A DNA stretch of 64,000 bases from Zymoseptoria tritici IPO323 (taxonomy: Eukaryota; Ascomycota; Dothideomycetes; Mycosphaerellales; Mycosphaerellaceae): NCBI RefSeq assembly GCF_000219625.1, contig NC_018214.1, forward strand, positions 1-64,000. Reading direction: 5' to 3'. The notes under the pieces are model-generated. The model saw only the letters and a program-made list of their open reading frames with translations. It ran no database searches and had not been told where the DNA came from. The translations under genes and the position numbers were made by a program. This document shows positions 1 through 63,590 of this stretch, piece after piece (position 1 is the first letter of the stretch; the number at the start of each line of letters is the position of its first letter).

Positions 1-143
1 CCCTAACCCTAACCCTAACCCTAACCCTAACCCTAACCCTAACCCTAACCCTAACCCTAACCCTAACCCTAACCCTAACCCTAACCCTAACCCTAACCCT
101 AACCCTAACCCTAACCCTAACCCTAACCCTAAACCCTAAACCC
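1..143. repeat. Telomere, (CCCTAA)n
   Basis: Uninterrupted CCCTAA hexamers run from base 1 to about 126, followed by two 7-base variants (CCCTAAA) at 127-140 and a partial CCCTA. The C-rich strand reads 5' to 3' from the left edge, so this is a left chromosome end. It abuts LINE-T copy 1 directly, with no subtelomeric spacer. Confidence 0.98.
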
Positions 144-1739
144 TACCACTCTACCGTAACGAACGCCGCGGTCGTCTACGCCCTCCTCGAATCGAGCCGG
201 ATTATATACGCCGTGTTCCTCGATTTTCAAGCCACCTTTAACGTTATAGATTATGTACTGCTCGCGGACGTTCTACGCCGGCGGAGATGTCCGGAGAACA
301 TGCTAGCTCTGATTGCGAGCCTCTGCTTTTTCGACGTCTGGTCCTTTGTTGTTTCGGATAGTACGGCTTCTAAGTGGTTTCCGCGGACGAGGGGAGTTCT
401 GCAGGGCTTACCCCTCTCGCCCTATCTGTTTAACATCTTTATCGATAGCTTGCTCGAGGACTTAAATCGACCTAGGATATTCGCCCTAGCCGGCTCTTCC
501 GACGTAATGCCTGCGGCGCTGCCGATTCCTCGCGCGCTGTTCTTCGCCGATGATAGTGTTCTCCTCGCTACCGACTTGGACGAGGTGCGTGTACTTATCC
601 AGATCCTCGAGCGCTGGTCCTCCGCTAACCGCATCGCCCTAAATATTAAAAAATGCGCCTATCTAGCGCCGGCGTCTTCGCAGGAGGCGATCTACTTCTT
701 TGGTGCGGAGGTACCGAGGAGAGAGGTATATACCTACCTCGGATTTCCCGTAACGGCGCGAGGGATTAACTTAAGGAGGCACCTTAAGAGCCGGCTCGAA
801 CAGGCTGGGAAACGAAGCGACTTCCTAACCCTCGACGCGGATGGTTAGGGCTTCGCGCATCGCCTGCGAGTCTATCGGCAGTATCTCGTACCGATGTTCG
901 AGTATAGCGCGCCTCTCCTCGCGGCGTTTGCTAAGGACTCTCCTAAGTTCTGGGACGAGACGACTAAGGACATTGCGAAGCTGACGAAGTAGATCTCGGG
1001 TTATGCTTCTAACCCTTACTTTACTCGCAATCTCCTAGGAATCTCCGCCCTACCCTCGCGATTTAAGGCACTAAAAACTGGCTTTTAGGTCGTAAAGAAG
1101 CACGCTCTGGAAGAAAGTCCGCTGCGGAAGTTGGGATTACTGATCTAGAAACCCAAAGCGTTCTTCCGGCGCTTGACGGAGGACAAGCTCTACGAGAAGT
1201 ACCGTAAGACACCCGAGTCCTGGCCTCGCGACCGAAGCCTTAGCAAAGACCGCCGTTCTATCTAGCGGTTCCTGCGCCAGGAGAGAGAGGAAGATATGGC
1301 TAAAGAGGCTAAGAAGTGGAGCCTAACCCGGATTATACTAGGAGAAAGCCGCCTAAAGCGGGACTTACGAGGAGCCGATCACTTTTTAAAGGCGCCGCGG
1401 TCCTTCTAGAAGCGCTTCCTCTAGTATCGGCGTAGAACCTTCTATACCTATAGTTTCTACGTCTGTACGAGCAAATTCATCCGAGGACACGAGACTTGCT
1501 ACCGGGAAAACAGGACGAGCTAGCTCTCGAGGAAGGAACGACGGGCGAAGCAGAAGATGCATAAGAAAATGGGCACTACGAATACGAAGTTTACCGAGGT
1601 AGACTTCCTTCTAAATACAGGATGCTAGGAGCGAGCTAACGAGATCCTCGAGCGAATCTCGACGAAGATTACGAAGGAGGAAGCTACGAAGGAGGAAGCA
1701 GAGGAAGCGGCGGCACAGACCTAGTGCACACTGTCCTGA
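144..1739 (+). pseudogene. LINE-T reverse transcriptase, copy 1 (partial, interrupted)
   Basis: The frame is open from the telomere junction to a TAG at 846-848, the longest intact RT stretch of the three copies. Non-LTR RT landmarks are visible: AVFLDFQATFNVID (catalytic block A), GVLQGLPLSPYLFNIF (block B) and FFADDSVLLA (block C, the catalytic Asp pair). After 848 the same frame continues to about 1739 with TAG codons where Trp or Gln would be expected. This part has a basic, Arg/Lys/Glu-rich C-terminal region ending in repeated KEEA-type residues. There is no start codon because the 5' half is missing. Copies 2 and 3 have lost the Asp pair, so this is the least mutated copy. Confidence 0.88.
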
Positions 1740-1913
1740 GTAGGACGTTAAAAGGCTCCGTCCGATGGGTAGGACGTTAAAAGGCTCCGTCCGATGAGTA
1801 GGATGTAAAGTGGCTCCGTCTAATAAGTAGGACATAAAGTGGCTCCGTCCGATGAGTAGGACGTAAAGTGGCTCCGTCCGATGAGTAGGACGTAAAGTAG
1901 CTCCGTCGACCCG
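1740..1913 (+). repeat. 29-bp tandem repeat in LINE-T 3' UTR (6 units)
   Basis: Six 29-bp units start at 1740, 1769, 1798, 1827, 1856 and 1885, each beginning GTAGGA(C/T)GT and containing GGCTCCGTC or a one-base variant. They lie just after the ORF end. Copy number differs between LINE-T copies (6, 5 and 4), so this is a VNTR inside the element. Confidence 0.9.
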
Positions 1914-2825
1914 GGACGTAAAAGCGGAGATTATCCCTCGAGGATAAATTGGGCGTTTACCCTATCGAAAAGGAGTCTCTTCCCTCGAGATGAAAGTAGG
2001 CGTCCGATCGGTAGGACGTTAAAAGGCTGCGCTGCGACGTAGGAGACGTGGGCGACTAGCGAGGCCCGGACTGGCTCCGTACCGGACAATTAACTCTATC
2101 CGGAAGGCCTAGCAGTAGATGTAAGGCGTGTACCCTAGATCTGCGGCTGCTTCCTCTTAAAGCCGGGGAGCGGGAGGAAGAAAACTAGTACCTCTATAGA
2201 GTAGTAGGAGGCTTAGAGGAATGCGAAGGCGACAGCGTAGTAGGGGAGAGGAGTGGACGACGACGATCGCTAGAGGAGGAATTCTAGCCGAAGGGAAGAC
2301 GGCTCTTCCCAAACCGTTTAGGAAGCACTTGTAGACTAGTGTATAAGCGGCTCGATCGGAATCGAATGTCTCCGATAGTAGATACGCCGGACGGAGGGAG
2401 GACAGAGCTCTACTAAACGGTCTTAAAGTGGGATGTTCCCCCTTAACGAGACGGGGTTATAGTTTCGGGCGGATGAGGAGACGCACACCTCGTCCGTTAC
2501 CTGGGAGGTTTGGAAACCTAAGGTACGATAGACAGTAAGCGATTGCCGGAGCGATATTTTGCGTTAGGATGCGGACTAGCCTATCGGTAGTCTCTCTTTT
2601 TGGCAGTTTAGTTAACTCGGGAGATGGTTAAAAGGACACCGTAAAACGTAGTTAGGCTGGGAGTAGCTGCGGTGCCGTGCATCGCGAGGCGCTTTACGTA
2701 GGAGCGTGGGTCTGTTTCCTCCCCTCTAAAGACGGCCAAAAGAGCCGGGAGCAAGGGCTTGGATGGGGCTTTAGTTCAGATCAGGTGCAAAGGTAGACTA
2801 GCCTATATAAACAAGTACAATGAAC
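1914..2825 (+). other. LINE-T copy 1 3' UTR, no gene
   Basis: Conserved with 5258-6169 in copy 2 and 61911-62852 in copy 3, so it is part of the element. Many stops in every plus frame; no ORF worth calling. It leads into the CCCTAA tail. Confidence 0.75.
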
Positions 2826-2843
2826 CCCTAACCCTAACCCTAA
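2826..2843 (+). repeat. Interstitial telomeric repeat, tail of LINE-T copy 1
   Basis: Exactly three CCCTAA hexamers between LINE-T copy 1 and the truncated 5' end of copy 2. Same strand sense as the telomere. Confidence 0.95.
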
Positions 2844-5112
2844 GGATAATAACGACGCTACTCGCAAGCTAAAGCGGCTACGCCGCCGTAGTAAGAAGAA
2901 GAAGGACTAGCGTCTTAAGGCGATAGCAAAGCCGAATCCGGACGCCGATAGCAGGACGCTCGAGATAGTCTATCTCTATAAGAGAGCGTAGCGCCGCGCA
3001 AACAAGAACATACTACTAGTACTAACCCCGGCAGCGAAGGCGAGAGGGATAACGGCAATCGACAAGGTAACGGAGGGATTTGCTGGTCGATTCGTCTCGA
3101 CGGCGACCCTCCTAGTATAGGAGATATTTCCTATCGACGATCGATCCGCCTCGCTCTCCTTCTCGATCGACGAGATAATATAGGAGCTTACCTACTAGGA
3201 TACTATAAAGGCCTGCGGAAACGATAGGGTATATATCCGTCTAATAAAAACCCTCGCGACGACGAGCTTCCTTTAGATCCTAGCCGCCCTCTATAATTCC
3301 TATCTCCGGAATAGTAAGACGCCGCGGAGCTAGAACGAAACTATTGTCTATCTAGTCGTTAAGGATAAGACCCGACGGGAGGATAGTACGATGCCGGCGA
3401 AGGACGCTAATAACGTTCATCCGATCTCGCTAGTAACGATGTTTTAAAAGGTCTTCGAGCGCCTACTCCTCTGGCGCTTTAATAGTAGGACATAGGCGAG
3501 GATATATCTTAACTAAGCGGGATTTCGAAGTTACTACTCTACTATAACAAACGCCGTAGTCGTCTACGCCCTCCTCGAATCGAGCCGGATTATATACGCC
3601 GTGTTCCTCGATTTTTAAGCTGCCTTTAACGTTATAGATTATATACTGCTCGCGGACGTTTTACGCCGGCGGAGATGTCCGGAGAATATATTAGCTCTGA
3701 TTACGAGCCTCTACTTTTTCGACGTCTAGTCCTTTGTTGTTTCGGATTGTACGGCTTCTCGGTAGTTTCCGCGGATAAGGGGAGTTCTATAGGGCTTACC
3801 CCTCTCGCCCTATCTGTTTAATATCTTTATCGATAGCTTGCTTAAGGACTTAAATCGACCTAGGATACTCGCCCTAGCCGGCTCTTCCGACGTAATACCT
3901 ACAGCGCCGCCGATTCCTCGCGCGCTATTCTTCGCTAATAATAGTGTTCTCCTCGCTAGCGACTTAGACGAGGTGCGTGTACTAATCCAGATCCTCGAGC
4001 ACTGGTCCTCTACTAACTACATTGCCCTAAACATTAAAAAATGCGCCTATCTAGCTCCGGCGTCTTTATAGGAGGCGATCTACCTCTTTAGTGCGGAGGT
4101 GCCGAGGAGAGAGGTATATACCTACCTCGGATTTCTTGTAACGGCGCGAGGGATTAACTTAAGGAGGCACCTTAAGAGCCGGCTCGAACAGGCTGGGAAA
4201 CGAAGTGACTTCCTAACCCTCGACGTAGACGGTTAGGGCTTCGCGCATCGCCTACAAGTCTATCGGCAGTATCTCGCACCGATGTTTAAGTATAGCGCGC
4301 CTCTCCTCGCGGCGTTTGCCGAGGACTCTCCTAAGTTCTAGGACGAGACAACTAAGGACGTTACGAAGCTAACGAAGTAGATCTCGGGTTATGCTTCTAA
4401 CCCTTACTTTACTCGCAATCTCCTAGGAATCTCCGCCCTACCCTCGCGATTTAAGGCACTAAAAACTGGCTTTTAGGTCGTAAAGAAGCACGCTCTGGAA
4501 GAAAGTCCCCTACAGAAGTTAGGATTACTAATCTAGAAACCTAAAGCGTTCTTCCGGCGCTTAACAGAGGACAAGCTCTACGAGAAGTACCGTAAGACAC
4601 CCGAGTCCTAGCCTCGCGACCGAAGCCTTAGTGAAGACCGCCGTTCTATCTAGCGGTTCCTACGCTAGGAGAGAGAGGAAGATATAGCCAAAGAGGCTAA
4701 GAAGTAGAGCCTAACCTAGATTATACCGGAAGAAAGCCGCCTAAAGCGGGACTTACGAGGAGCCGATTACTTTTTAAAGGCGCTGCGGTCCTTCTAGAAG
4801 CGCTTCCTCTAGTATCGGCGTAGAACCTTCTATACCTATAGTTTCTACGTCTATATAAGCAAATTTATCCGAGGATACGAGACTTGCTACTAGGAAAATA
4901 GGACGAGCTAGCTCTCGAGGAAGGAACGACAGGCGAAGTAGAAGATGTATAAGAAAATAGGCACTACGAACACGAAGTTTACTAAGGTAGACTTCCTTCT
5001 AAATACAGGATGCTAGGAGCGAGCTAACGAGATCCTCGAGCGAATCTCGACGAAGATTACGAAGGAGGAAGCGGAGGAAGCGGCGGCACAGACCTAGTAC
5101 ACACTGTCCTAA
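2844..5112 (+). pseudogene. LINE-T reverse transcriptase, copy 2 (RIP-damaged)
   Basis: In one plus frame it can be followed through the non-LTR RT fingers region (a 'RPISL'-type equivalent reading HPISLVTMF near 3417), palm blocks A and B, and block C near 3928. Many TAG/TAA codons interrupt it. The catalytic pair has changed from Asp-Asp to Asn-Asn (FFANNS), so no active RT could be made even without stops. An open stretch at 3838-4071 is only a fragment of this gene. The natural stop is probably TAA at 5110-5112. Confidence 0.85.
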
Positions 5113-5257
5113 GTAGGACGTTAAAAGGCTCGGTCCGATAAGTAGGACGTAAAGTAGCTCCGTCCGATAGGTAGGATGTAAAGTAGCTCGGTCCGATAGG
5201 TAGGACGTAAAAAGGCTCCGTCCGATAGGTAGGACGTAAAAAGGCTCTGTCGACCTA
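5113..5257 (+). repeat. 29-bp tandem repeat, LINE-T copy 2 (5 units)
   Basis: Five 29-bp units start at 5113, 5142, 5171, 5200 and 5229, with the same GTAGGA(C/T)GT start as in copy 1. Cytosines in some units are changed at CpA. Confidence 0.88.
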
Positions 5258-6169
5258 GGACGTAAAAGCGGAGATTATCCTTCGAAGATAAATTGGGCGT
5301 TTACCCTATTAAAAAGGAGTCTCTTCCTTTAAGATAAAAGTAGGCGTCCGATTAGTAGGACGTTAAAAGGCTGCGCTGCGACGTAGGAGACGTAGGCGAC
5401 TAGCGAGGCCCGGACTAGCTCCGCACTAGACGATTAACTCTATCCGGAAGGCCTAGCGGTAGATGTAAGGCGTATACCCTAGATCTGCGGCTGCTTCCTC
5501 TTAAAGCCGGGGAGCGGGAGGAAGAAAACTAGTACCTCTATAGAGTAGTAGGAGGCTTAGAGGAATGCGAAGGCGACGGCGTAGTAGGGGAGAGGAGTAG
5601 ATAACGACGATCGCTAGAGGAGGAATTCTAGCTAAAGGGAAGACGGCACTCCCTAAACCGTTTAGGAAGCACTTATAGACTAGTGTATAAGCGGCTCGAT
5701 CGGAATCGAATGTCTCCGATAGTAGATACGCCGGACGGAGGGAGGACAGAGCTCTACCGGACGGTCTTAAAGCGGGATGTTCCCCCTTAACGAGACGGGG
5801 TTACAGTTTTAGGCGGATGAGGAGACGCATACCTCGTCCGTTACCTAGGAGGTTTAGAAACCTAAGGTACAATAGACGGTAAGCGATTGCTAGAGCGATA
5901 TTGTGCGTTAGGATGCGGATTAGCCTATCGGTAGTCTCTCTTTTTAGCGGTTTAGTTAACTCGGGAGATAGTGAAAAGGACACCGTAAAACGTAGTTAGG
6001 CTAGGAGTAGCTACGGTGCCGTACATCGCGAGGCGCTTTACGTAGGAGCGTAGGTCTGTTTCCTCCCCTCTAAAGACGGCCAAAAGAGCCGGTAGTAAGG
6101 GCTTAGATAGGGCTTCAGTTCAGATTAGGTGCAAAGGTAGACTAGCCTATATAAACAAGTACAATGAAC

Positions 6170-6192
6170 CCCTAACCCTAACCCTAACCCTA
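6170..6192 (+). repeat. Interstitial telomeric repeat at a breakpoint
   Basis: Three CCCTAA hexamers and CCCTA, then the first base of the truncated recombinase-like ORF. It marks where a broken chromosome end was healed or where LINE-T was joined to it. Confidence 0.93.
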
Positions 6193-8854
6193 TAAGGACC
6201 TAGAACTACTTCTAAATACGATAGATCCTAATATCTTTCTTAAGAATAGGCTACTAGCCTTTATCTATTATACAACTATAAATCTAGGCTTAGAAACCTT
6301 TAGTTCTATCGAAGATCTCTCTATAAATACTAGAAAGGCTCTTAATAACTATAACCCGGGAAATAATAATCTAGAAGTAAAAGCCTTTAAAGAGCTCGAT
6401 ATAGCTACGAGAAAGTCTTACCTTAAGCCTATCGCTACCTTCTTCGTCTATCTCTATACTATATATCGAGAGCCGGAAGCCTACTACTCTAAGCCTACTA
6501 TAGAGTCTTCTCTTAGTAGTCTTTTATTTAAAGTATCTACTATTAGTACGTATTTAATAGAGGATAGTAATAGAGCTAAAGAAGATCTAAAGAGAGTTTT
6601 ATTAGAGACTCTAGATTATCTTCTTACTCTAGGGATAGATATAGTATTCTACGAGAATAGTAGTTTTAATAATCCTTTAATAACCTATTTAATTATAGCG
6701 AGCTTAGATCCGGCTAAGATCCTAGCTCTAGAAGATAAGAATACTATTATATTTAGAAAGACGACTTCGGTACAATCTCTATTATCTAAGTTAATCTACT
6801 CTAGCCGCCTATTTACTTTAAAGTATTTAGTACTTCTAAGTACTACTACTACTAAAGTAGATAACGCCTTAAAGTTTATCGAGTCTAGATTAACTATAAA
6901 TGCTAGTAACTACTTTACGGAGTACTATAGCCTTCGGATTAAGCTAAAGTATTATAATTATAATAAGATTAGTAGCTATAAGCCTATAGACGATATAGAT
7001 CCGGATACTTTAGCTATAGATAATATTAAAATTAATATAAATACGCTACGGACCTTATTTATAAAATCCTTAGAAGATCTAGAGGATCTATTCTTTAAGG
7101 ATATTATACTATTTAATAAGGAGGAGGAAAATATAATAGACCTAGATCTAAGTAAAGTTCTCGATCGAAAAGATAATAATACGCCTTTAGAGGATCTAAC
7201 GAGCTCTAAGTACCTAGTAAAATATAAGGATATTCTTATTAAGAAGTTTATAAATAAAGACCTCTTACTAGATCCTACTCTAGGTAGTAAGGCGAATATT
7301 AAAGACGGTATTCTAAGCTACTTTAAAAAGATCTATAACTTCTTAGTATCTTTAGCGCTAAATATCTACTTACTATCGAGTAGTCCCTTAAGAGGGAAAG
7401 CGGTTATTCTACTTAAGTTTAGAAATACTAGTCTAGGAACCCTACGAGATATCTTCTTAGATAAGAGTAATAATTTAATAGCTTTAGATACGAGTAACCT
7501 CGATAAGAACCGGGACTCTACTACTCTAAATACTAATACTATTCGGTTTCTACCTATACGCCTAACGAGGATTATAGTCTACTATATTACTTTTATTATT
7601 CCGCTAATAGAGTATCTACGGATTAACTACCTAGACGTTACGGCCTTAGAGACGAAGCTTTTCTTTAAGCTTTATAATAAGAATATTACGAGCCTTACTC
7701 TAAGTAAAGCTCTAAAAGATATAACTAAGAAGTACTTTAGTAAAGGGATTAGTATTAAGGAATATAGACATTTGATAACCTATATAATTAAAGAGCGTAT
7801 ACTAATAGAGAGGCCGGAGCTATTAAGCCCTCGATCGAATAAGAAGGCTATAGGATTAAGTAATCGAGAACAAACTAATATCGAGGATATACTAGCGGGA
7901 CATTCTACTAAAGTAGCGAATCTAAACTACGCTAGAGAAACGAACTACTTTAGTAATAAGACTAGAGATACTACAAACCGAAGCCTAGCTTTCTCTAAGC
8001 TATACTTTAACTACTTTAATTTACTAGAGGATAGATCGATAAGAGAGATCTTAAAAGATAAAGTAGAGTATATCTCTCGAGTAAAAAGCTATAAGACGGC
8101 TAGTAATAAAGAGGATAGTACTACCTCTTCTTCTATATCTTCGATCGACTCTAGTAGTCTTAATCTAAGTAATAATTCGGATAATAAAACGCTTACTATT
8201 CCTAAGGTACTCGAGTCCTCTAAAGATAATCTAAGTAACCCTAGCTCGGGTTCTAATAAATCTCTTACCTTTAAGAATATATTTAGTAGTCCTAAGACTC
8301 TTTTAACCGAAGAAAATACCCGGAAAAATCGACTTACCCCTAAAGCTCTTCGTCTACTTAATAATAAAGTCTATAGCCCTTCGAAAGAAACCCTTATCGA
8401 AGATTATATAACGACTATTAATACTAAAGTAGAAAGTAATCCGGTACTAAAGAAAGATAGTAATAAAGGAAAGGCTCCTATTATCTTAAGTAGTAATAGT
8501 AATAGTAGCTCTTATAAAAGCGCTAGTAGCGTATCCTCTAATAATATTAAACCTAAGCTAAAACCTACTAGCTCTAAACCTATAGTTAAGAAACAGTCGA
8601 GCTCTAAGGCTATAGAAGATATAGATATTCCTACTATTAATATCGAAAAGAACTCGAGTAGTAACTCTAAGGATAAAGAAGATAATAAAGCTATAAGCCG
8701 CTCTATATCTAGAGGATCTAAGCGCTCGTTTAGTAATAGAAGTAGTAGTAACGATAATAATAAGGGATCTTCTAATCCTCCGATAGCTAAAAAGGGTAGA
8801 GGTAGGCCTAAGAAGGTTAAGACTAATAAGAGGGGACGGCCGAAAAAGATATAG
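6191..8854 (+). CDS. Tyrosine-recombinase-like protein with AT-hooks, 5'-truncated
   Basis: One frame is open for 887 codons with a single terminal TAG. It reads straight in from the telomeric-repeat junction, with TAA at 6185-6187 just upstream, so the true N-terminus is gone. Near codons 520-580 there is a tyrosine-recombinase C-terminal pattern: EYRHL (Arg526, His527), then AGHSTKVANLNY with His571 and candidate nucleophile Tyr580 nine residues later. A conserved PIRLTRIIVYY segment near codon 455 may hold the first Arg. This layout is known from fungal Crypton-like and telomere-linked-helicase-associated proteins. Next comes a long Ser/Asn/Lys-rich linker and two RGRPKK AT-hooks (codons about 866-887). 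I saw no ATG, TGG, TGT or TGC codon and very few CA or TG dinucleotides. Activity is unknown; the family is an inference. Confidence 0.7.
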   Translation, partial: YKDLELLLNTIDPNIFLKNRLLAFIYYTTINLGLETFSSIEDLSINTRKALNNYNPGNNNLEVKAFKELDIATRKSYLKPIATFFVYLYTIYREPEAYYSKPTIESSLSSLLFKVSTISTYLIEDSNRAKEDLKRVLLETLDYLLTLGIDIVFYENSSFNNPLITYLIIASLDPAKILALEDKNTIIFRKTTSVQSLLSKLIYSSRLFTLKYLVLLSTTTTKVDNALKFIESRLTINASNYFTEYYSLRIKLKYYNYNKISSYKPIDDIDPDTLAIDNIKININTLRTLFIKSLEDLEDLFFKDIILFNKEEENIIDLDLSKVLDRKDNNTPLEDLTSSKYLVKYKDILIKKFINKDLLLDPTLGSKANIKDGILSYFKKIYNFLVSLALNIYLLSSSPLRGKAVILLKFRNTSLGTLRDIFLDKSNNLIALDTSNLDKNRDSTTLNTNTIRFLPIRLTRIIVYYITFIIPLIEYLRINYLDVTALETKLFFKLYNKNITSLTLSKALKDITKKYFSKGISIKEYRHLITYIIKERILIERPELLSPRSNKKAIGLSNREQTNIEDILAGHSTKVANLNYARETNYFSNKTRDTTNRSLAFSKLYFNYFNLLEDRSIREILKDKVEYISRVKSYKTASNKEDSTTSSSISSIDSSSLNLSNNSDNKTLTIPKVLESSKDNLSNPSSGSNKSLTFKNIFSSPKTLLTEENTRKNRLTPKALRLLNNKVYSPSKETLIEDYITTINTKVESNPVLKKDSNKGKAPIILSSNSNSSSYKSASSVSSNNIKPKLKPTSSKPIVKKQSSSKAIEDIDIPTINIEKNSSSNSKDKEDNKAISRSISRGSKRSFSNRSSSNDNNKGSSNPPIAKKGRGRPKKVKTNKRGRPKKI

Positions 8855-9072: not shown

Positions 9073-10745
9073 TATTTTTAAGGTTTTAATAGTATTTAGG
9101 TACGCTAGGAAAATAGTAGCTAGTCTATAGTATATCTAATAAGCTCTAGATACTTTATTTATAACTTATCTCTCTAAAGATTTCTTAATAATTTATTTTA
9201 AGCTCTATAGAATTTCTATTACCTAACTACTATTTTTAATAGAGTATTAGGTATCTATATAGCCCTACAAAATTAATAGCTAGTCCCTAATAAATCTGAA
9301 AAGCTCTAGAGAATTTCTTTTACCCTACCTACCCTAAGACCTACTTACTAATTTATTCTAGGCGCTATAGAGTATCTACTACCTAGCGATTATTTTTTAT
9401 AGCTTTCTTAGTATCTATATAGCCTCTTAAAAATAGTAACTAGTCTATAGTAAGTCTAATAAGCTCTAGATAATTTACTTATAACTTATCTTACTAAGAG
9501 TTACTTAATAATTTTTTTTGCGCTCTATAGAAGTTCTATTCCCTAACTACTATTTTTAATAGCTTACTTAGCATTAATATAGCCCTAGAAAAATAATAAC
9601 TAGTCCTTAGTAAATCTAATAAGCTATAAAGAATTTCCTTAACTCTAGACTATATCCGAATTTCTCGCCGATTTATTTTAGGCACTATAGAGTTTCTATT
9701 ACCCGGCTACTATTTTCTATAGCTTTCTTAGTATTTATATACCCTTAAGAAAATAGTAGCTAGTCCGTAGTAAATCTACTAAGCTCTAGATAATTTGCTT
9801 ATAACTTATCTCCCTAAGAATTGTTTAACGATTTCTTTTAAGCTCTATAAAGTCTCTACTACTTAGCTACTATTTTCTATAGCTTTCTTTATATCTATAT
9901 AGCCCTAGAGAAATAGTAAGTAGTCCGTAGTAAACCTAATAAGCTCTAGATAATTTACTTATAACTTATCTCCCTAATAATTCTTTAACGATTTCTTTTA
10001 AGCTCTATAGAATTTCTATTACCCGGCTATTATTTTCTATAGCTTTCTTAGTATCTATATAGCCTTAAACAAATAGTAGCTAGTCTATAGTTAATCTAAT
10101 AAGCTCTAGATAATTTAACTATAACTTATCTTACTAAGAATTCCTCGGCCCTTTCTTTTAAGCTTTATAGAATTTTTATAACTAAACTGCTATTTTTTAT
10201 AGCCTTTCTAGCATCTATAGAGCCCTAGAAAAATAATAACTAGTCCGTAGTAAATCTAATAGGCTCTAGATAATTTCCTTATAACTTATCTCCCTAAGAA
10301 GTACTCGATAATTTATTTTACGCTCGATAGAATTTCTATACCCTAACTACCATTTTTTTTAGCTTCCTTAGTATCTATATAGCCCTAGAAAAATAATAGC
10401 TAGTCCTTAGTAAATCTAATAAGCTCTAGAGAATTTGCTTAAATCTAGGTCCTATCTAAATTTTTTACTAATTTCTTATAGGCTTTTCAGAATTCCTACT
10501 ACCTAACTATTATTTTTTATAGCTTCCTTACTATTAGTATAATCTTAGAAAAATAGTAGCTAGTCCTTAGTAAATCTCCTAAGCTCTAAAGAAATCTATT
10601 AATACTAATCTCTTCTAATATTACCGATCGATTTTTTCTAGGCTCTATAGAATTTCTATTACCTATCTACTCTTTTTCTAACCCTTCTTAGTATCTATAT
10701 AGCCTAGGAAAAATAGTCGCTAGTCTCTAGTAATTCTTATAGTAA
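9073..10745. repeat. 160-bp satellite array, ten full units
   Basis: The landmark TAGTC(C/T)..TAG recurs at 9121, 9281, 9441, 9601, 9761, 9921, 10081, 10241, 10401, 10561 and 10721, always 160 bp apart. Two other landmarks keep the same step: AAGCTCTAGA at 9141, 9301, 9461 and so on, and CTCTATAGA-like at 9201, 9361, 9521 and so on. Units differ by many substitutions but apparently by no insertions or deletions. Partial units flank the array. No ORF. Confidence 0.93.
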
Positions 10746-56788: not shown

Positions 56789-58500
56789 CTATAAGCTATA
56801 CTAATATAGCTAGTAGCTTTAGAGCCGAACTCCGATAGTAAGGACGCGGCTATAGCGGGACCCTTTTAGGATAGCGAGTTAAATAAACTATAGGGTCCGA
56901 CTTTAAAAAAGGATACCTAGTATTAGACGGTAATCTACGCTATTAAGGACGGATCCCGGGCTATTCTACCGGATCTAAAGGTTAAAATCTAGATTAGGGA
57001 TTATAGTATCGACGAGAAGGGCCGCTTAAGGCATCGCGGTAGGTTATAGGTTCCTAGAGCGGCGGTTACGTCGGAGGCCGAATATAAGTCGGCGGATACT
57101 AAGATTCTATAAAACGATAAACTCCGTACTAAGATTATTTAGTCCGTATATAACTCCCCGGTCTACGGCTACCCCGGGCGGGACTCTACGGCCTTTATAC
57201 TAGGGAGAAACTTCTACTAGCCCCTATAGTTACGTTATATTAGGAGGTTTTTAAGAAACTACGATTACTACGGAAGGAATAAGGTATAGAGAGAGTATAA
57301 ACACGGACTCCTACGCCCTCTACCGGTTCCCGATCGCTTCTTCTAGGAGATCTCTATAGATTTTATAACCGACCTCCCTAAGTCTAAGGGGAACTATTAC
57401 CTATAGGTTATTAAAGACCGTTTAAGTAAGTCCGTCGTTTTAGAGGCGATGCCTAGTATAAAAGCGGAGGAGTACGCCGAGAGATTCCTAGACTACTAGG
57501 TAAGATATTATAGGCTACCGAGCGCGATTACGAGCGATAGGGGGACGAACTAGATAAGTATATTCTAGAAAATACTCTACCGGTTAGTCGGAGTATAGTA
57601 GCGACTAAGCTTAGCTTACTACCCTTAAACTAACGGAGGCCTAGAGAGACTAAACTAGGACGTCTAAGCCTATCTAAGGAACTATATTAATTACGAGTAG
57701 TCCGACTAGAAACGCTAGCTCTCTACGGCCTAATTAGCGCTAAACGCCCGTTACTATTCGGGGTTAGGAATAAGCCCCTTCTTCGTAGTTTACGGATACG
57801 AAGCCCCGTCTCCCGTACCCTTAGAGCCGGATAGCGAGGAGCCCTCTACGCTAGCCGTAGCCTAGAGAGCTTCGAAGTTCGTAGAGAAAATAAAGGGAAT
57901 TATAGACCTATACTAGGTAAGTATAGCGGACGCTACCTAAAAGTAGGAGGAGGCCGCTAATAGGAAGCGTACCGCGGCGCTAATATACCGGAAGGGCGAT
58001 AAGTTATAGCTAGACTTAAGGAATTATCGTACTAATCGCCCTAAGGAAAGCCTAGATTATAAGAATACGAAGTATATAGTTAATAAGGTCTTATCGCCGG
58101 TTTCTATCCGTTTAGCTAGGATCCCCGGTAATATTTATCCGGTCTTCTATTCGGATCTATTAAGACTAGCGAGCGACGACCCTCTCCTAGGCTAGGTCTC
58201 CGACGATTACTAGCCGGATCTAGTATTAATTAAGTCGTACGAGGAATAGGATATAGAAGAACTACTATATATAAGGATAGTACTAAAGAATAGAGGAGGG
58301 GGAAGGAAGGTCCTAGTTAAATAGACCGGCTACTACGATCTAACGTAGGAGCCCTTAGACAACCTAGTAGATACCGTCGCTATAGATAACTTCGAGTAAA
58401 AATTTAGAAATACTAAAGTTAATAATAGGCTAAAAGAGAAGTATATTAAGAAGAGGAAAAAGAGAGCGGTTACCGAGAAGAAGTAACTAGATATACGAGG
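56789..58500 (+). pseudogene. Chromovirus pol fragment (integrase and chromodomain)
   Basis: Plus-strand Ty3/gypsy pol C-terminus, RIP-damaged. Landmarks: a zinc-binding-like segment PVYGYPGRDSTAFILGRNFY near 57150-57210; integrase core ISIDFITDLPKSKGNYY near 57355, SAITSDRGTNW near 57530 and LSLAYYP / TNGGLERLN near 57610-57650; C-terminal region RKGDKLWLDLRNY near 57990. The chromodomain RKVLVKWTGYYDLTWEPLDN lies near 58305-58360, followed by a Lys/Arg-rich end. Trp, Gln and other codons are stops. It is cut at 56789 by the LINE. It belongs to a family distinct from element B. Confidence 0.87.
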
Positions 58501-58995
58501 AGAACGGGAGGTTACGTAAGAATTTTTATTTTATAAATTACTTTTTAGAGTAGTAATCGTACTACTATATTCTATACCGGGAACTAACCGAGAACGAGCG
58601 GAAGTAGCTATCTACGAAGAGCGACGCCTACCTAATATAAGAGTAGTAGGAATACTACTAGGACTAATAAGTAGTTAGTAGATTATACCGAACGGAGACT
58701 AGCGAAGTACTTACGTTTGTCCTTACTACGCGATAACCTCCTTTATAGAACGAGTAATCTCCGAGGCTACTAGACTATTTCGAGTAGTTAGTAGGGCTTT
58801 TCGATCGGAGATAATAAGAGAACCTACGTAGAGAGTAAACCTTCTACCTATAGTAGCATTAAGGCTTTCTAAGCCTTAAGAGTAGTACCTAAACTATTAT
58901 AAGCATTATTACTATAGTCTAATTAGCCGACGGTTTTCGAGCGGAGGCCGGCGATACTTACGCTACCTACTAAGTACCTACGCGGGTCTAAAGGG
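58501..58995. other. 3' flank of chromovirus fragment, no gene
   Basis: No open frame of interest. Probably 3' untranslated sequence of the preceding element. Confidence 0.45.
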
Positions 58996-59273
58996 TGTAG
59001 GCGGGTCTGTATCTAGCTTTAGCTTCGTATGTAGGTCGGAGGATAAAAAAAAGGACACCTACGAGGAGATACGACTACTAGCACCTCCGGAAGGACCTTC
59101 GACACGTACACGAGGCCCAATAGTACAGAGCACTTAATACTACCTCTTTTGCCCCCCCTACCTTTTACTCTAATTGTATAGTTTACCGCCCTTTTTGCCC
59201 CCTATGCTACCTCGTACGTCCGCACTACTACTATCCGCGGGAGATCGGAACCTTTGGAAGTTCCCCCCTTACA
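58996..59273 (+). repeat. Inverted solo LTR related to element A
   Basis: TGTAGGCGGGTCTG to CCCCCCTTACA, 278 bp, matching element A's LTR but on the opposite strand and diverged in the middle (near 59045-59120). No element A body is attached on either side. It may be a solo LTR, or the 3' LTR of the adjacent chromovirus if the families are related. Confidence 0.75.
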
Positions 59274-59362
59274 GTAGGTAAGTAAAGCTATACTAGGACT
59301 CGCCTCTACGCGTCGTCGAAATTATCCTCCGGGTAGACGAAAGATAGAGGATATAAGTAACG

Positions 59363-59463
59363 GAGGCGGAGAGAAGAAGAATAGAGGCGGAAAGAAGAAG
59401 GATTAAGACGGAGAGAAGAAGGATTAAGAGGGAGAGAAGAAGAATAGAGGTAGAGAGAAGAAC
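59363..59463 (+). repeat. AG-rich repeat of about 19-23 bp in LINE-T 5' region
   Basis: Four to five units of GGAGAGAAGAAG with variable spacers AATAGAGGC / GATTAAGA. In the element's frame they encode Glu/Arg/Lys-rich peptide. Confidence 0.7.
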
Positions 59464-61794
59464 GACGGACCTCGAAAGGTAATAATAGACCCGAAGCGAA
59501 AGCGAGCCGAGGATTATAACGACGCCGCTCGTAAGCTAAAGCGGCTACGCCGCCGTAGTAAGAAGAAGAAGGACTAGCGTCTTAAGGCGATAGCGAAGCC
59601 GAACCCGGACGCTAATAGCGGGACGCTCGAGACGGTCCGTCTCTATAAGAGAGCGTAGCGCCGCGCGAACGAGAATATACTACTAGTACCGACCCCGGCG
59701 GCGAAGGCGAGAGGGATAACGGTAATTAATAAGGTAATAGAGGGATTTGCCGGTCGATTCGTCTTAATAGCGACCCTCCTGGTATAGGAGATGTTTCCTA
59801 TCGACGATCGATCCGCCTCGCTCTCCTTCTCGATCGACGAGATAATATAGGAGCTTACCTACTAGGATACTACGAAGGCCTACGGAAACGATAGGGTATA
59901 TATCCGTCTAATAAAAACCCTCGCGACGACGAGCTTCCTCCGGATCCTAGCCGCCCTCTATAATTCCTATCTCCGGAATAGTAAGACGCCGCGGAGCTAG
60001 AACGAAACTATCGTCTATCTAGTCGTTAAGGATAAGACCCGACGGGAGGATAGTACGATACCGGCGAAGGACGCTAATAACGTTCGTCCGATCTCGCTAG
60101 TAACGATATTTCGAAAGGTCTTCGAGCGCCTACTCCTCCGGCGCTTTAATAGTAGGACATAGGTAAGGATATATCCTAACTAGGCGGGATTTCGAAGTTA
60201 CTACTCTACCGTAACGAACGCCGCGGTCGTCTACGCCCTCCTCGAATCGAGCCGGATTATATACGCTATATTCCTCGATTTTTAAGCTACCTTTAACGTT
60301 GTAGATTATATACTACTCGCGGACGTTCTACGCCGGCGGAGATGTCCGGAGAATATACTAGCTCTAATTACGAGCCTCTACTTTTTCGACGTCTAGTCCT
60401 TTATCGTTTCGGATTATACGGCTTCTTAGTAGTTTCCGCGGACGAGGGGAGTTCTATAGGGCTTACCCCTCTCGCCCTATCTATTTAATATCTTTATCGA
60501 TAGCTTACTCGAGGACTTAAATTAACCTAGGATACTCGCCCTAGCCGGCTCTTCCAACGTAATACCTACAGCGCTACCGATTCCTCGCGCGCTATTCTTC
60601 GCTAATAATAGTATTCTCCTCGCTAGCGACTTAGACGAGGTACGTATACTAATCTAGATCCTTGAGCGCTAGTCCTCTACTAACCGCATCGCCCTAAATA
60701 TTAAAAAATACGGCTATCTAGCTCTAGCGTCTTCGTAGAAGGCGATCTACCTCTTTAGTACGGAGGTACCGAGGAGAGAAGTATATACCTACTTCGGATT
60801 TCCCGTAACGGCGCGAGGGATTAACTTAAGGAGGCACCTTAAGAGCCGGCTCGAACAGGCCGGGAAACGAAGCGACTTCCTAACCCTCGACGCGGATAGT
60901 TAGGGCTTCGCGTATCGCCTACGAGTCTATTAGTAGTATCTCGCACCGATGTTCGAGTATAGCGCGCCTCTCCTCGCGGCGTTTGCTAAGGACTCTCCTA
61001 AGTTCTAGGACGAGACGACTAAGGACGTTACGAAGCTGACGAAGTAGATCTCGGGTTATACTTCTAACCCTTACTTTACTCGCAATCTCCTGGGAATCTC
61101 CGCCCTACCCTCGCGATTTAAGGCACTAAAAACTAGCTTTTAGGTCGTAAAGAAGCACGCTCCGGAAGAAAGTCCGCTGCGGAAGTTGGGATTACTAATC
61201 TGGAAACCTAAAGCGTTCTTCCGGCGCTTAACGGAGGATAAGCTCTACGAGAAGTACCGCAAGATACCCGAGTCCTAGCCTCGCGACCGAAGCCTCAGCG
61301 AAGACCGCCGTTCTGTCTAGCGGTTCCTACGCTAGGAGAGAGAGGAAGATATAGCCGAAGAGGCTAAGAAGTGGAGCCTAACCCGGATTATACCGGAAGA
61401 AAGCCGCCTAAAGCGGGACTTACGAGGAGCCGATTACTTTTTAAAGGCGCCGCGGTCCTTCTAGAAGCGCTTCCTCTAGTATCGGCGTAGAACCTTCTAT
61501 ACCTATAGTTTCTACGTCTGTACGAGCAAATTCATCCGAGGACACAAGACTTGCTACTACGAAAACAGGACGAGCTAGCTCTTAAGGAAGGAACAACGGG
61601 CGAAGTAGAAGATACATAAGAAAATAGGCATTACGAATACGAAGTTTACTAAGGTAGACTTCCTTCTAAATACAGGATGCTAGGAGCGAGCTAACGAGAT
61701 CCTCGAGCGAATCTCGACGAAGATTACGAAGGAGGAAGCTACGAAGGAGGAAGCGGGGGAAGCGGCGGCACAGACCTAGTGCACACTGTCCTAA
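59464..61794 (+). pseudogene. LINE-T reverse transcriptase, copy 3 (RIP-damaged)
   Basis: One plus frame with many TAG codons. RT landmarks: ELTY / KAYGNDRVYIRLIKTL near 59850, NVRPISLVTIFRKVFERLL near 60080, GFRSYYSTVTNAAVVYALLE near 60190, GLPLSPYLFNIF near 60460, FFANNSILLA near 60595 (the Asp-Asp pair now Asn-Asn). After RT comes the same basic C-terminal region as copy 1. TAA at 61792-61794 is the likely end. Confidence 0.85.
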
Positions 61795-61910
61795 GTAGGA
61801 CGTTAAAAGGCTCCGTCCGATAGGTAGGACGTAAAGTAGCTCGGTCCGATAGGTAGGACGTAAAAAGGCTCCGTCCGATAGGTAGGACGTAAAGTAGCTC
61901 CGTCGACCCG
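61795..61910 (+). repeat. 29-bp tandem repeat, LINE-T copy 3 (4 units)
   Basis: Units at 61795, 61824, 61853 and 61882. Confidence 0.87.
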
Positions 61911-62852
61911 GGACGCAAAAGCGGAGATCATCCCTCGAGGATAAATTAGGCGTTTACCCTATCGAAAAGGAGTCTCTTCCCTCGAGATAAAAGTAGGCGT
62001 CTAATCGGTAGGACGTTAAAAGGCTACGCTACGACGTAGGAGACGTAGGCGACTAGCGAGGCCCAGTCTAGCTCCGTACCGGACGATTAACTCTATCCGG
62101 AAGGCCTAGCGGTAGATATAAGGCGTATACCCTAGATCTACGGTAGATATAAGGCGTATACCCTAGATCTACGGCTACTTCCTCTTAAAGCCGGGGAGCG
62201 GGAGGAAGAAAACTAGTACCTCTATAGAGTAGTAGGAGGCTTAGAGGAATACGAAGGCGATAGCGTAGTAGGGGAGAGGAGTAGACAACGACGATCGCTA
62301 GAGGAGGAATTCTAGCCGAAGGGAAGACGGCTCTCCCTAAATATTCGGGAAGTACTTATAGACTAGTATATAAGCGGCTCGATTAGAATCGAATGTCTCC
62401 GATAGTAGATACGCCGGACGGAGGGAGGATAGAGCTCTACCGGACGGTCTTAAAGCGGGATGTTCCCCCTTAACGAGACGGGGTTATAGTTTCGGGCGGA
62501 TAAGGAGACGTATACCTCGTCCGTTACCTAGGAGGTTTAGAAACCTAAGGTACGATAGACGGTAAGCGATTACCGGAGCGATATTTTACGTTAGGATACG
62601 GATTAGCCTATCGGTAGTCTCTCTTTTTAGCGGTTTAGTTAACTCGGGAGATAGTTAAAAGGACACCGTAAAACGTAGTTAGGCTAGGAGTAGCTACGGT
62701 GCCGTATATCGCGAGGCGCTTTACGTAGGAGCGTAGGTCTATTTCCTCCCCTCTAAAGACGGCTAAAAGAGTCGGTAGTAAGGGCTTAGATAGGGCTTTA
62801 GTTTAGATTAGGTATAAAGGTAGACTAGCCTATATAAATAAGTATAATAAAC

Positions 62853-62869
62853 CCCTAACCCTAACCCTA
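62853..62869 (+). repeat. Interstitial telomeric repeat, tail of LINE-T copy 3
   Basis: Two CCCTAA and one CCCTA, then unrelated sequence CCGATACC. Same sense as the chromosome-end telomere. Confidence 0.93.
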
Positions 62870-63590
62870 CCGATACCTAAACGATAGGCCTAATAGTAGT
62901 ACGCTCCTTAATAACTAGCTCCTTAATAGCTAGCTACTTAATAGCTAGCTACTTAATAGCTAGCTCCTTAATAGCTAGCTCCTTAATAGTTAGCTCCGTC
63001 TTTATAGTACTAAACTTAGGCTTAGGCCTAATAGGCTCTAGCTTAATAGGCGTAATCTCGGAGCGCTCTTATAACGGCGTAAGGGTTAGAGCGCTAGCTA
63101 GCGGTATCCGAGAGCTAGAGGTTAGCTTCTTTACCGTCGATAGTAGCATCGTCGCTATTATATTAGCTACTCCGAAGAACGTCGAAGATCTAACCGTCTA
63201 AGCTAGCTATATATCCGGTAAAGGGGAAGCTACTTCGGTAGCCTACTTCTCCCTTACTCTTATAACTACCCTATTAAGAGTAGTAGCCTTAGCCGCGGCG
63301 AGTATATAGTACGAGCTAGAATCCCCGTTAACGTCGTCGTCGAGAATAATAAGAGAGTTATTATATCTTACTAGTAAGGATAGCGGTAGTAGCTTAGAGC
63401 TCGTAGCGCGTTTATAAGTAATAGTAGTAGTTACTCGGAGTCTAGGCTCTAAGGGCTAAGCGGTAGCGGCGTCGTAGAGATCGCTAGTAAGATCCTTATC
63501 GCCGCCGCCGAGATTAGGAAGGTCGGAGAGCTACTTATCTATCTATTACATCGTATAGTTAACCTTACCGTTAGACTTAGAAGCTCTCGC
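62870..63590 (-). pseudogene. Unrecognised decayed ORF with 5-residue repeats
   Basis: A minus frame can be read from about 63200 to 62870: VRSSTFFGVANIIATMLLST, a Pro/Lys-rich linker (ITPIKLEPIRPKPKFSTIK), then a pentapeptide repeat ELAIK from the 15-bp units. One or more TAA/TAG codons interrupt it. Between about 63200 and 63590 no frame is clearly coding. No family recognised. Confidence 0.4.
62904..62993 (-). repeat. 15-bp tandem repeat (6 units)
   Basis: Six units of the CTCCTTAATAGCTAG type. 15 bp is five codons; the minus frame reads (L/V)-A/V/T-I-K-E. Base changes keep the frame. Confidence 0.85.

Follow-up and report, generated by a model that had tools for sequence, protein, structure and literature searches.

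A LINE with telomeric 3′ tails and an APE-type endonuclease, probably telomere-targeting, at the chromosome ends of Zymoseptoria tritici

Long interspersed nuclear elements (LINEs) form arrays at the chromosome ends of Drosophila (HeT-A/TART) and Chlorella (Zepp), with their 3′ ends facing inward. The silkworm elements TRAS and SART carry an APE-type endonuclease, and the tail of TRAS is poly(A). Here we describe a LINE family with telomeric 3′ tails in Zymoseptoria tritici IPO323, both in the first 64,000 bases of contig C5 (C5:1-64000, the left end of the contig; hereafter the window) and across the genome of 39,686,251 bases in 21 contigs. The family occupies most chromosome ends of this major wheat pathogen. 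We consider it likely to be a telomere-targeting non-long-terminal-repeat (non-LTR) retrotransposon with an APE endonuclease, primed from the 3′ end of the TTAGGG strand and followed by recapping of the end by telomerase. Unlike in Drosophila, which has no telomerase and whose HeT-A/TART elements are themselves the telomere, telomere repeats cap the LINE here.

A telomere-tailed LINE is already known in this species. As described by Dhillon et al. 2014 (PMC4522978), the non-LTR ‘family 4’ is confined to subtelomeres, ends in 1-3 telomeric hexamers, points its 3′ end away from the telomere and occurs in tandem copies; the same account gives it as 3.4-3.5 kb long, without endonuclease and Penelope-like. 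RIL_element2 (RIL2; Grandaubert et al. 2015, PMC4502367; Schotanus et al. 2015, PMC4589918) is classed as an L1-like LINE and reported from 34 of the 42 subtelomeres. Family 4, RIL2 and the LINE of the window are very probably one family, which seems to have been filed twice, once as an endonuclease-less Penelope-like element and once as an L1-like LINE. The element described here differs from those accounts in having an endonuclease and in its length, which comes to at least about 8 kb. In the text of the publications available to us we found no description of an APE endonuclease in family 4/RIL2 (the transposable element library itself aside), nor of any fungal APE-type telomeric LINE. Refiling changes the expected mechanism, from end-primed only to nick-primed or end-primed, and it also alters the length of the element and its placement beside the MoTeRs, which destabilise telomeres.

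The MoTeR elements of Magnaporthe and FoTeR of Fusarium (CRE clade) resemble this LINE in being fungal and in lying in telomeres with the 5′ end tipward, and published accounts also give them 5′-truncated copies, internal relics with 3′ telomere repeats and tandem repeats inside the element. Their endonuclease, however, is described as restriction-enzyme-like and C-terminal to the reverse transcriptase, whereas relatives of our LINE have an APE-type domain on the N-terminal side. Similar to our LINE, TRAS and SART (R1 clade) are reported to take the telomere repeat as target, and the orientation of TRAS, deduced from its reported insertion in the CCTAA strand, is the same as here. SART1 is reported to end in poly(A), unlike the telomeric tail found here, and TRAS/SART hosts are insects.

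We searched the genome for the LINE/CCCTAA junction pattern AATRAACCCCTAACCCTA, allowing up to one mismatch, with the reversed pattern as control. The pattern matched 79 times and the control not once. All 79 matches pointed their 3′ end inward and lay no more than 85,369 bases from the end of a contig, the 39 forward matches all at left ends and the 40 reverse matches all at right ends; the zone within 85.4 kb of ends makes up 9.0% of the genome. At least one match was present at 35 of the 42 contig ends, and 7 carried none. Since the junction pattern includes the tail, we ran a second query with the 319-base 3′ untranslated region (UTR) without it. This gave at least 42 matches, a lower bound because 40 of 76 candidates were scored, and a telomeric tail followed in all 42 (two recognised via a variant pattern allowing an extra C). 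By contrast, a 1-kb piece (57600-58600) of a dispersed repeat beside copy 3 of the window matched 29 times, in both orientations and mostly away from ends. Non-telomeric tails or random insertion sites would have argued against the initial annotation of the window; with 42 of 42 UTRs tailed and 79 of 79 matches subtelomeric in one orientation, neither was seen. The LINE identity of the element, its telomeric tail and its uniform orientation are all supported, and the data agree better with insertion at chromosome ends than with insertion at random.

In the window itself, the two 5′-truncated copies originally described are confirmed: they follow the telomere in head-to-tail order, both with a CCCTAA tail and with the 3′ end inward (Table 1); copy 3 is additional to these. 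The open frame at 213-848 in copy 1 gave an RVT_1 match (E 2.9e-17). Copy 2 lacks ~0.9-1.05 kb upstream of its start that is present in 26 of 28 copies elsewhere (including the query copy, L006), and copy 1 is shorter by a further ~0.69 kb at its 5′ end. The 3′ ends of both face away from the telomere. An unrelated dispersed repeat adjoins the 5′ side of copy 3 at 59272/59273. With one mismatch allowed, CCCTAACCCTAA occurs 29 times in the window, compared with 0.92 expected from shuffles.

We read 44 junctions. Three of them have an extra C and fall outside the 79-match pattern, which brings the genome-wide minimum to 82. Among the 44 there were 40 distinct 3′ flanks, eight junctions forming four flank-sharing pairs; a telomeric tail precedes every flank, two of these tails being mutated, and 11 junctions place the tail immediately against another LINE copy. 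The telomere-like tracts that follow the LINE are 7-49 nt long (median 25; n = 43, one more being too diverged to score). Of ten tips read, nine have exact terminal telomere runs of 84-145 nt; the exception is C21 right (L072), whose contig end lacks telomere repeats, in agreement with the one missing telomere, on chromosome 21, that Dhillon et al. 2014 (PMC4522978) report.

Comparison among ends revealed empty counterparts of an occupied site. At C4 left, the LINE tail runs into CCCTCACCCTCACCCTCACCGCCGCGCGC. On both ends of C20, the CCCTAA array of the tip gives way to CCCTCA repeats and then to the same flank (89.5% in an alignment of about 1.5 kb between C20 left and C4 left). This flank also begins at base 140 of C12 left, a match in position only. 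The C4 LINE therefore sits where these three other ends have telomere, and comparing empty and occupied sites in this way allows the target to be tested directly across strain panels. At C5 left, the flank of the 6.19-kb junction matches C20 left from about base 1952 (97.4% over 2,227 bases), and the 1.7-1.8 kb that separates this flank from the telomere at C20 left and right is missing; the join reads CCCTATAAGGACC, against GAGGATAAGGACC in the intact end. As a separate observation, the C20 left and right tips (L066, L068) and the C21 left tip (L069) share the order CCCTAA array, (CCCTCA)n array, subtelomeric DNA, with copy number varying by end.

The reverse transcriptase is of the LINE kind (RVT_1, E 1.4e-23). 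Sequence matches in PDB were R2 (1.1e-13) and LINE-1 (6.3e-10), and telomerase was not among the 13 PDB sequences at E <= 1, in a comparison that held no Penelope reference. In longer copies, an APE-type endonuclease stretch lies N-terminal to the reverse transcriptase, in frame within the same open reading frame (ORF), and was recognised by profile comparison and by the fold of the relative P0001. The TRAS1 endonuclease structure is among the structure matches of that fold; the 50 chains listed include neither TERT nor Penelope, a list that excludes neither. The close relatives P0001-P0024 are ORF2 proteins without stops, and all 24 carry the APE-type domain N-terminal to the reverse transcriptase. 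Among them, the restriction-enzyme-like endonuclease motif of the CRE clade (CCHC, then RHD/N, then R/KPD; taken from PMC12857005) was found in none, a test that covered these relatives and not the damaged copies themselves; a C-terminal CxC..H..C is retained in 23. A search for DNA around these relatives in collections of viral and genome contigs, which by design contain no fungal genomes, gave no match. Upstream of ORF2, where a gag-like ORF1 would be expected, the C1 copy carries ~540 proline-rich codons interrupted by 13 stops; they gave no Pfam match.

The unit extends upstream through this proline-rich frame and a tandem-repeat region. In 12 copies the upstream DNA splits into two versions at GTCGAAAGAGCCCTG, represented by 7 and 5 copies (L088-L097, L080, L086). 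The nearest tail lies 7.8-8.5 kb from the split point in 11 of them and 21.7 kb away in one. In 10 copies, shared blocks reach as far as 11.1-14.4 kb, again measured from the closest tail; these lengths assume that every start is paired with its closest tail. A segment of some 0.5 kb appears to distinguish the two versions. A complete length of ~8.0 kb, at which many copies match from C1:18926, was rejected, as 12 further copies share sequence farther out. Shared blocks cannot fix the true 5′ end, because break-induced copying of distal DNA could also yield them. Judged from sequence, the unit would be about 8 kb or more, as a lower bound, and the published ‘full length’ of 3.4-3.5 kb looks like a truncated view, given that 26 of 28 copies continue upstream.

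How might the element reach chromosome ends? The element RNA would end in at least two CCCUAA units, which would pair with the TTAGGG strand at the chromosome end. The 3′-OH of that strand, provided by a natural overhang, a break or a nick from the encoded endonuclease, would then prime reverse transcription. Early stop of synthesis or later erosion of the end could produce the 5′ truncation, telomerase would add fresh CCCTAA repeats on the 5′ side, and the recapped telomere could receive the next copy, building head-to-tail stacks. Priming by the TTAGGG strand would place the LINE 3′ end always centromere-ward; the primer should be this strand, because the other gives the opposite orientation, which was seen in 0 of 79 matches. 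The initial annotation had proposed the natural TTAGGG overhang as primer. Insertion at chromosome ends stands, and the overhang is now one candidate beside an endonuclease nick, which the encoded APE-type domain makes an equal one. SART1 is reported to require at least three telomere units and to insert within the array rather than at its end (PMC7265360), and MoTeRs to insert in plain telomeres (PMC7367193); by analogy, nicking is plausible here. We see an even chance that the family is a fungal telomere-specific LINE outside the MoTeR/CRE kind, APE-type with a telomeric RNA 3′ end, which would reach ends, including broken ones (C5 left, 6.19 kb), by CCCUAA/TTAGGG pairing. With relatives P0001-P0024 in other sequence sources, it would be a separate fungal origin of telomere targeting that combines a TRAS-like endonuclease with an Athena-like tail.

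Several observations weigh against telomere targeting by an APE-type element. The Pfam endonuclease was found in 0 of 6 A2 members and neither in the C1 copy nor in the complete relatives P0001 and P0018, and PDB sequence searches with the endonuclease stretch gave no match. The domain is missing from all three window copies, and the GDIN motif in an unbroken frame was not seen in 9 of 28 copies. These Pfam blanks, in X-laced stretches as well as in the two complete relatives, and the PDB blanks had first suggested that there is no endonuclease, a reading overturned by the profile comparison and the P0001 fold. The orientation count overstates the number of independent events, because subtelomeric exchange and break-induced replication keep orientation. 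Tracts of 7-49 nt after the LINE are short for random insertion along telomeres of 84-145 nt, unless the longer ones are lost to later breakage, a behaviour reported for MoTeRs; because short tracts may be survivors (tracts of more than three units are described as break-prone in PMC7367193), tail length cannot separate end-priming from nicking. Finally, the C5 left tail joins sequence that at intact ends lies 1.7-1.8 kb in from the telomere, which leaves two options: the end had already broken, or the copy missed the telomere. The junction would fit a break that telomerase healed before insertion as well as priming directly on the broken end.

The orientation bias bears on two other explanations. 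Orientation-preserving duplication of ends by recombination or break-induced replication, after a few insertions, would also concentrate copies at ends. Near-identical copies do exist (L006 and L009 agree at 99.4% over the upstream 1,046 bp), four pairs of junctions share flanks, and many ends have large upstream blocks in common; but the 40 distinct flanks among 44 junctions, each behind a telomeric tail, and the dispersed repeat of the same window, which occurs in both orientations and mostly internally, make this an unlikely source of the pattern. We give very little credence to an endonuclease-deficient Penelope-like element that extends an exposed telomere overhang (Dhillon et al. 2014), even though uniform orientation and telomeric 3′ repeats are common to the telomeric Penelope-like elements cited in PMC4522978. 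The longer copies have an APE-type endonuclease in frame with a reverse transcriptase that matches R2 and LINE-1 structures and no telomerase at E <= 1 (a Penelope reference being outside that comparison), and the 3.4-3.5 kb length looks truncated.

The LINE might instead be kept as a sacrificial buffer or backup telomere that protects or lengthens ends, much as the initial annotation had suggested that it could maintain or cap them. At 10 of the 42 ends a LINE 3′ end lies within 1 kb of the tip, and the LINE copies at the tips read are 5′-truncated, as eroding caps would be. Yet a telomerase gene is present on C7 (open frame of 855 residues), canonical repeats cap 9 of the 10 tips read, and 7 of the 42 ends have no match to the junction pattern. 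Moreover, an open ORF2 was found in 0 of 28 four-kilobase loci (longest open stretch, 243 codons), and window copies 1-3 differ pairwise at 181-194 sites, 93-96% of them transitions, mostly in CpA/TpG and CpG contexts, the expected mark of repeat-induced point mutation. A buffer of this kind is therefore highly improbable, and a maintenance role for the LINE is unlikely. Telomerase most likely maintains the ends, given its open frame against the closed ORF2 of all 28 copies. An intact copy elsewhere is possible, since further copies lie outside the 28 and PMC4502367 lists gene models that overlap RIL_element2, among them one of 1,506 aa on chromosome 9, without RNA-seq support.

Table 1 Features of the window (C5:1-64000) that belong to the telomere and to the three LINE copies.
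Feature	Position	Strand	Remarks
Terminal telomere (CCCTAA)n	1..147	+	exact to 132, variant repeats until about 147
LINE copy 1	144..2824 (start about 144)	+	5′-truncated within reverse transcriptase region; fused straight to telomere
29-bp tandem repeat, 3′ UTR of copy 1	1737..1907	+	
29-bp tandem repeat counterparts	copy 2: 5113-5251; copy 3: 61795-61904		
Telomeric 3′ tail of copy 1	2825..2843	+	CCCC TAACCC TAACCC TAA
LINE copy 2	2846..6168	+	5′-truncated between endonuclease and reverse transcriptase; adjoins copy 1 tail
Telomeric 3′ tail of copy 2	6169..6192	+	
Target flank, low-GC subtelomeric	6193..8418	+	97.4% identity to C20L 1952-4178
LINE copy 3	59273..62851	+	orientation as copies 1 and 2
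Telomeric 3′ tail of copy 3	62852..62870	+	

Other subtelomeric sequence lies just inside the LINE stack. From the low-GC block at 6193-8854, a 160-base piece recurs at 96-100% in C20 left, C20 right, C3 left, C4 left, C12 left and both C17 ends. The block includes an open frame of 360 codons (7772-8854), whose only match is a sub-threshold AT-hook, and may correspond to the subtelomeric RecQ-like family of Dhillon et al. 2014. Just inside it, a 160-bp repeat forms a ten-copy array at 9105-10741 (75% matches); C20 left has internal repeats at 4.7-6.3 kb. Farther inward, the pairs 11258-11557/43927-44226, 13092-13312/45761-45981 and 15157-16670/47022-47660 match at about 88-99%, in the same order and 31-33 kb apart, which suggests that a segment was duplicated or that a large element is present twice.
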